Virus record (IMG/VR): IMGVR_UViG_3300021131_000047
Coordinates: 1 to 24,263 of that record
DNA: 24,263 nt
Reading direction: 5' to 3' (one strand)
Source of the DNA: a virus
The notes beneath the pieces are model-generated. The model searched no databases. It saw only the letters and a list, made by a program, of their open reading frames with translations, and was not told the origin of the DNA. Of this stretch, positions 3,458-3,814 are shown one piece after another. Each line of letters opens with the position of its first letter. Positions within the stretch are counted from its first letter, which is position 1. The position numbers were made by a program, and so were the translations under genes.

Positions 3458-3814
3458 ATGGCAGCACAACACGAACAAAAGCCAGGCACAGGCGTTGCAT
3501 ACTACGATCCACCTGAGAAGCGCAAGTCAGAGAAAGCACCGGATTACACCGGTTTCATCACGCTGGAAATGGACTACAAGGCCGGTGAGAAGCTGAAGTT
3601 TGGTATCTGGGAGAAGGCAACCAGCAGCGGGTACACCCTGTTGTCGTTGCGTGAAGACAACTGGAGCAAGAAGCAGAACATGTTGAAAGAAGAAGAGCGT
3701 GACACGCCACGGGAAGTACAACCCCGTGTGATTGGCCAGCGCCCAGGATTCAATCGACCAGCGCTTACCCAAGCAAAGCAGAATCATCTTGATGATGATG
3801 AGATTCCGTTCTGA
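3458..3814 (+). CDS. Probable ssDNA-binding or SSB-mimic protein with DDDEIPF tip
   Basis: The 118-residue protein ends LDDDEIPF, almost the same as the acidic C-terminal tip of bacterial SSB (DDDIPF), the docking site for recombination and replication proteins. The middle, DYTGFITLEMDYKAGEKLKF (residues 29-48) and SGYTLLSLREDNW (57-69), is strand-rich and could be a small beta-barrel. Residues 75-110 form a basic, Pro-containing linker, as in SSB. The tip, order of parts and location between recT and rusA favour a phage SSB analogue. I cannot recognise a standard OB-fold signature, so a different fold using the same tip is possible. Confidence 0.7.
   Translation: MAAQHEQKPGTGVAYYDPPEKRKSEKAPDYTGFITLEMDYKAGEKLKFGIWEKATSSGYTLLSLREDNWSKKQNMLKEEERDTPREVQPRVIGQRPGFNRPALTQAKQNHLDDDEIPF

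Follow-up and report, generated by a model that had tools for sequence, protein, structure and literature searches.

Host SSB is recognised by RecT proteins through its seven C-terminal residues (PMC10711431). A phage-encoded parallel is the SSB of phage HK620 (SSB-HK620), whose gene lies beside that of the Sak4 annealase. Both the recruitment of Sak4 to ssDNA covered with SSB and the stimulation of annealing depend on its six C-terminal residues, and it is this tip, NDYPPF, that loads the annealase (PMC5928155). A second phage-encoded example is the SSB of phage Enc34, for which the term acidic C-terminal tail is used (PMC5686142).

Here we describe a gene from a virus record of 24,263 bases (IMGVR_UViG_3300021131_000047, positions 1 to 24,263), which is referred to as the window. 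As in HK620, it is a phage gene in the company of an annealase gene. SSB-HK620 is, according to its description, remotely homologous to SSB and probably a tetramer (PMC5928155), whereas the body of the window protein is not SSB-like. Compared to bacterial SSB (PF00436), the window protein is smaller and similarity of the body is undetectable, but the two have in common the layout of linker and tip, the expected role and a C-terminal acidic tip ending in PF (DDDIPF in most of the SSBs compared). The features of the locus are as follows.

1067..1969, + strand: YqaJ/RecE-like exonuclease, putative ssDNA producer of the module (Pfam YqaJ 7.9e-08; phrog_434 3.2e-44)
2176..2937, + strand: RecT-like single-strand annealing protein and probable binding partner of the tip (phrog_561 4.8e-24; Pfam RecT 9.6e-05, just under the cut-off)
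2934..3455, + strand: phrog_2693 protein, between recT and the SSB-like gene
3447..3451, + strand: Shine-Dalgarno-like AAGGA, 6 nt 5' of the ATG of the SSB-like gene, read from the sequence
3458..3814, + strand: SSB-like protein gene of the PHROG 18154 family, ATG to TGA, 118 aa, C-terminal end DDDEIPF
3488..3658, + strand: conserved core of the SSB-like protein, residues 11-67, possibly DUF736-like
3659..3790, + strand: variable linker of the SSB-like protein, residues 68-111; model confidence is low past about residue 70
3791..3811, + strand: acidic SSB-type tip DDDEIPF, residues 112-118
4189..4608, + strand: RusA Holliday junction resolvase (Pfam RusA 9.8e-35)

The open reading frame with its SSB-type end, which had been predicted from the sequence, is a real gene. 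Its placement between recT-type and rusA-type genes also holds, with the refinement that it lies one gene away from recT and that small ORFs precede rusA. The gene order is therefore YqaJ/RecE exonuclease, RecT-like protein, phrog_2693 protein, SSB-like gene, small ORFs and RusA. With a probability of about 0.68, we propose that the protein is the phage's own SSB stand-in within this recombination module, the body of which would bind ssDNA while the tip would dock the RecT-like annealase.

Three further details of the locus were recorded. No ORF of the phrog_2693 type was seen at the corresponding position, downstream of recT, in three of the RecT-linked loci described below (L223, L225 and L232). 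The small ORFs downstream (3816-3989, 3826-4188 and 4049-4192, together covering window positions 3816-4192) overlap in different frames, and some are open in two other loci as well (L001 and L221). At 7956-10169 on the minus strand, the window encodes a 737-aa protein with three copies of DTSRFGKP as its N-terminus.

The protein family and its acidic tip

Relatives were sought in IMG/VR, in annotated phages and in bacterial genomes and gathered with an iterated HMM, yielding 108 distinct sequences, nearly all of which are from phages. One subgroup alone comprises at least 572 confirmed stretches. Since the gene was present in just 3 of 398 genomes of one bacterial phylum, we regard the family as chiefly a phage family.

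The family is already catalogued, and PHROGs names it SSB. On its own, the window protein has a single and marginal PHROG match, to PHROG 18154 ('single strand DNA binding protein', E 0.0024, residues 19-118), which the tip does raise (E 0.092 when the tip is removed). Among 50 representative relatives, 47 matched PHROG 18154 (best 2.4e-18) and 38 matched PHROG 7364, also labelled SSB. Described members of these two PHROGs, for example ORF24 of Vibrio phage VpV262 and the phiEcoM-GJ1 SSB, have a core homologous to that of the window protein and the same kind of acidic tip; the window protein is distant from them (E=0.0024) and has a short insertion preceding strand 3 as well as a linker longer than in many members.

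VpV262 ORF24 is a strong member of PHROG 18154 (2e-31), and its record carries the note 'similar to single strand DNA binding protein C-terminus'. There, at least, the SSB name was therefore taken from the tail, and the label of PHROG 18154 may be partly tail-derived. For the relatives, a PHROG match arising from the tail only was ruled out, with the core alone matching at E 3.6e-22 to 1.4e-10. We found no ssDNA-binding experiment on any member of the PHROG 18154 family in the literature.

An acidic tip, defined as three or more acidic residues close to the C-terminus and a final F or L, was present in 98 of the 108 relatives; among 3712 other ORFs of 60-160 aa in the loci of these relatives, only 33 had one. 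An end of the form [ILVM]PF occurred in 91/108 relatives vs 5/3712 other ORFs; this background is a rough null, because it includes spurious ORFs. The tip is absent or poor in a few relatives. The original prediction had called DDDEIPF an SSB-type acidic tip and named homologues without it as evidence to the contrary, and the survey bears the prediction out, with a docking-type tail conserved in the great majority of the family.

A cleaner set was obtained by picking loci with the RecT neighbour as bait (n=15; several are closely related, and one contig had been encountered before). In 14 of these loci a family member lies downstream of recT, either directly or one gene on, and in the fifteenth the contig stretch stops 526 bases past recT. 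The C-terminus is an acidic tip with PF in thirteen of the 14 members and DEDLPFN in the remaining one.

A codon comparison of 13 members gave pN/pS ratios of 0.12 for the tip, 0.34 for the core and 0.57 for the linker, the tip rates being rough because the tip is only seven codons long. The tip codons combine a high pS (0.86) with a low pN (0.10), and the tip is therefore kept as protein and not as DNA. Among the four closest members, the tip (0.18) and the core (0.16) had similar ratios. The tip is under purifying selection, and the linker is variable.

Some members depart from the common architecture. MW202825.1 carries two tandem family members (L005:3552-3773 and 3766-4002), the first lacking the acidic tip and the second ending in NDDDVPF, possibly with split roles. 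Members of 126-130 aa (L019:4854-5234, L033 and L034:4854-5246) have an extra N-terminal stretch that seemingly duplicates the beginning of the core and may make them two-domain proteins; those of L033 and L034 continue one residue past the tip (DDDLPFI). A further phage family ending in an SSB-type tip may be PHROG 2544 (362 positions), whose C-terminal end is matched by the tail of VpV262 ORF24 (L040:4001-4255; E 3.2e-04).

The core and its possible link to DUF736

P28, D29, G32, G43, W51 and G58 are near-invariant in the core, and G12, K22 and an L/I-S-L strand are conserved as well. Strands are predicted at residues 11-16, 30-34, 47-54 and 60-67 of the window protein. Its AlphaFold2 model consists of four strands followed by a helix, with a pLDDT of 80-86 in the core and low confidence in the tail; the model of a 75-residue relative likewise has four strands.

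The core is not detectably SSB, in line with the original prediction of a body without SSB signature. No Pfam family matched the window protein at E<=10, a PF00436 profile search of the window record returned nothing, and hhalign of the tail-free family core against 25 SSBs gave 0.08%. The structural comparison with OB-folds that had been suggested yielded no confident PDB match for either AlphaFold2 model (Foldseek, E<=0.001). The Foldseek match between the model of the relative and the Enc34 SSB, the structure of which has been solved (PMC5686142), was insignificant (E 2.2). In the VIA structure comparison the best Z was 3.6, and no OB-fold SSB stands out. PDB sequence searches, run from the protein alone and from a profile of 50 rows, were discarded, as they returned T-cell receptor and beta-lactamase noise only.

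By profile comparison, the best link of the body appears to be to DUF736 (PF05284). Against this family, hhalign gave 94.6% (E 6.7e-08) for the tail-free core and 77.7% for the window clade alone. The score of the real DUF736 (40.9) was above those of all 40 column shuffles (<=40.3%, score <=24.1), and reversed DUF736 gave 0.2%; low hhalign values are untrustworthy, because a reversed-core control gave 54%. The DUF736 model of Pfam did not match the window protein and was weakly matched by 8 of the 50 relatives (best 7.3e-04), and a PHROG scan of DUF736 sequences gave no match. The motif APDY...W.K...G.y.SL is common to DUF736 and the family core. DUF736 proteins differ in being longer (about 99 aa), in coming from conjugative elements and in lacking the acidic tip in the matched regions compared.

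The conjugative elements (ICEs) of Mesorhizobium transfer as ssDNA. DUF736 genes are present on all of those examined (PMC8627217). Tentatively, we consider it possible that the DUF736-type domain is a separate non-OB ssDNA-binding module, which phages joined to an SSB-type docking tail for loading annealases and polymerases and which conjugative elements use in a tail-less form, possibly on the transferred ssDNA. This would provide a function for DUF736 and would mean that the SSB tail was acquired convergently.

An unrelated fold carrying a copied SSB tail, as originally suggested, gains from the DUF736 link and from the lack of an OB match, and an SSB-type tail on another body is largely supported, with some probability left for a diverged OB-fold. 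We consider it unlikely that the protein is a very divergent OB-fold SSB that was cut down to a minimal barrel and has a normal SSB tail. Such an origin would agree with the SSB-like tail and gene context, with the filing of the family as SSB in PHROGs and with the NCBIfam SSB model, which one of the 50 relatives touches (0.0089). However, hhalign of the core favours DUF736 over the 25 SSBs (94.6% against 0.08%), no OB-fold SSB is matched confidently by structure, and just four strands are predicted in about 60 residues.

Proposed role in the recombination module

In the role that we favour, that of the phage's own SSB stand-in, the YqaJ/RecE-like exonuclease would generate ssDNA, which the small beta-sheet body would coat, probably in oligomeric form. 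The disordered linker would extend the acidic tip outward, where it could dock the phage RecT-like annealase and thereby load it on ssDNA. The tip may dock host SSB-interacting proteins too. The phage would thus be spared reliance on the tail of the host SSB. Should the body bind ssDNA with a fold other than OB, the SSB docking tail would be a portable address label on unrelated bodies, RecT and Erf annealases would have a ready phage partner for recombineering, and a functional prediction would follow for DUF736, which is conserved in conjugative elements.

The genes upstream of the representatives encode annealases (RecT-like or Erf-like) or YqaJ/RecE-type exonucleases, a few being unassigned, and RusA-like resolvases lie downstream in some of the loci. 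Because the gene follows several annealase and exonuclease families, and because a phage SSB tip loads its cognate annealase (PMC5928155), the phage annealase is the likeliest partner of the tip. The original prediction suggested that the tail might take over host repair proteins such as RecO and PriA, which is possible but now becomes secondary.

In a rival reading, the protein would be a decoy or adaptor without ssDNA-binding activity, and its tail would occupy host RecO, PriA, RecQ and ExoI, shutting down or redirecting host repair; this seems to us improbable. Although the closeness of the tip to host SSB tips would suit a decoy, a mere tail carrier would have no need of a conserved core with an invariant PD motif and a nearly invariant W, and the gene follows annealases, which act on ssDNA.

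The nucleic-acid binders PC4, MoSub1 and PUR-alpha were among the VIA rows at Z 2.5-3.3 (PC4 at 2.6-3.1), mixed with unrelated folds, and are treated as a lead only. A PC4 identity based on motif resemblance found no support in the profiles (hhalign of the tail-free core, 1.3%, with four PC4 sequences only). A dimeric PC4/PUR-like ssDNA-binding fold with an SSB tail, which would leave the role unchanged and alter the ancestry, is very improbable, for its agreement with the four strands and helix of the window model and with these structural rows is offset by Z values near 3, which are at noise level, and by the PC4 profile result.

No canonical SSB was detected in the 58 records (45 + 13) carrying the family, window included. 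This absence is weak support for an SSB stand-in, because the base rate in phage records is low (one SSB query matched 2401 of 50,697, about 4.7%), and we dropped it as proof of replacement.

In some lytic phages, including carriers of a PurZ-like gene, the family gene neighbours PolA, and a helicase frequently lies close by. Three such phages (L039, L041 and L046) encode an adenylosuccinate synthetase (PurZ-like) and have the family gene adjoining DNA polymerase I; two of them also carry an annotated dATP triphosphohydrolase.
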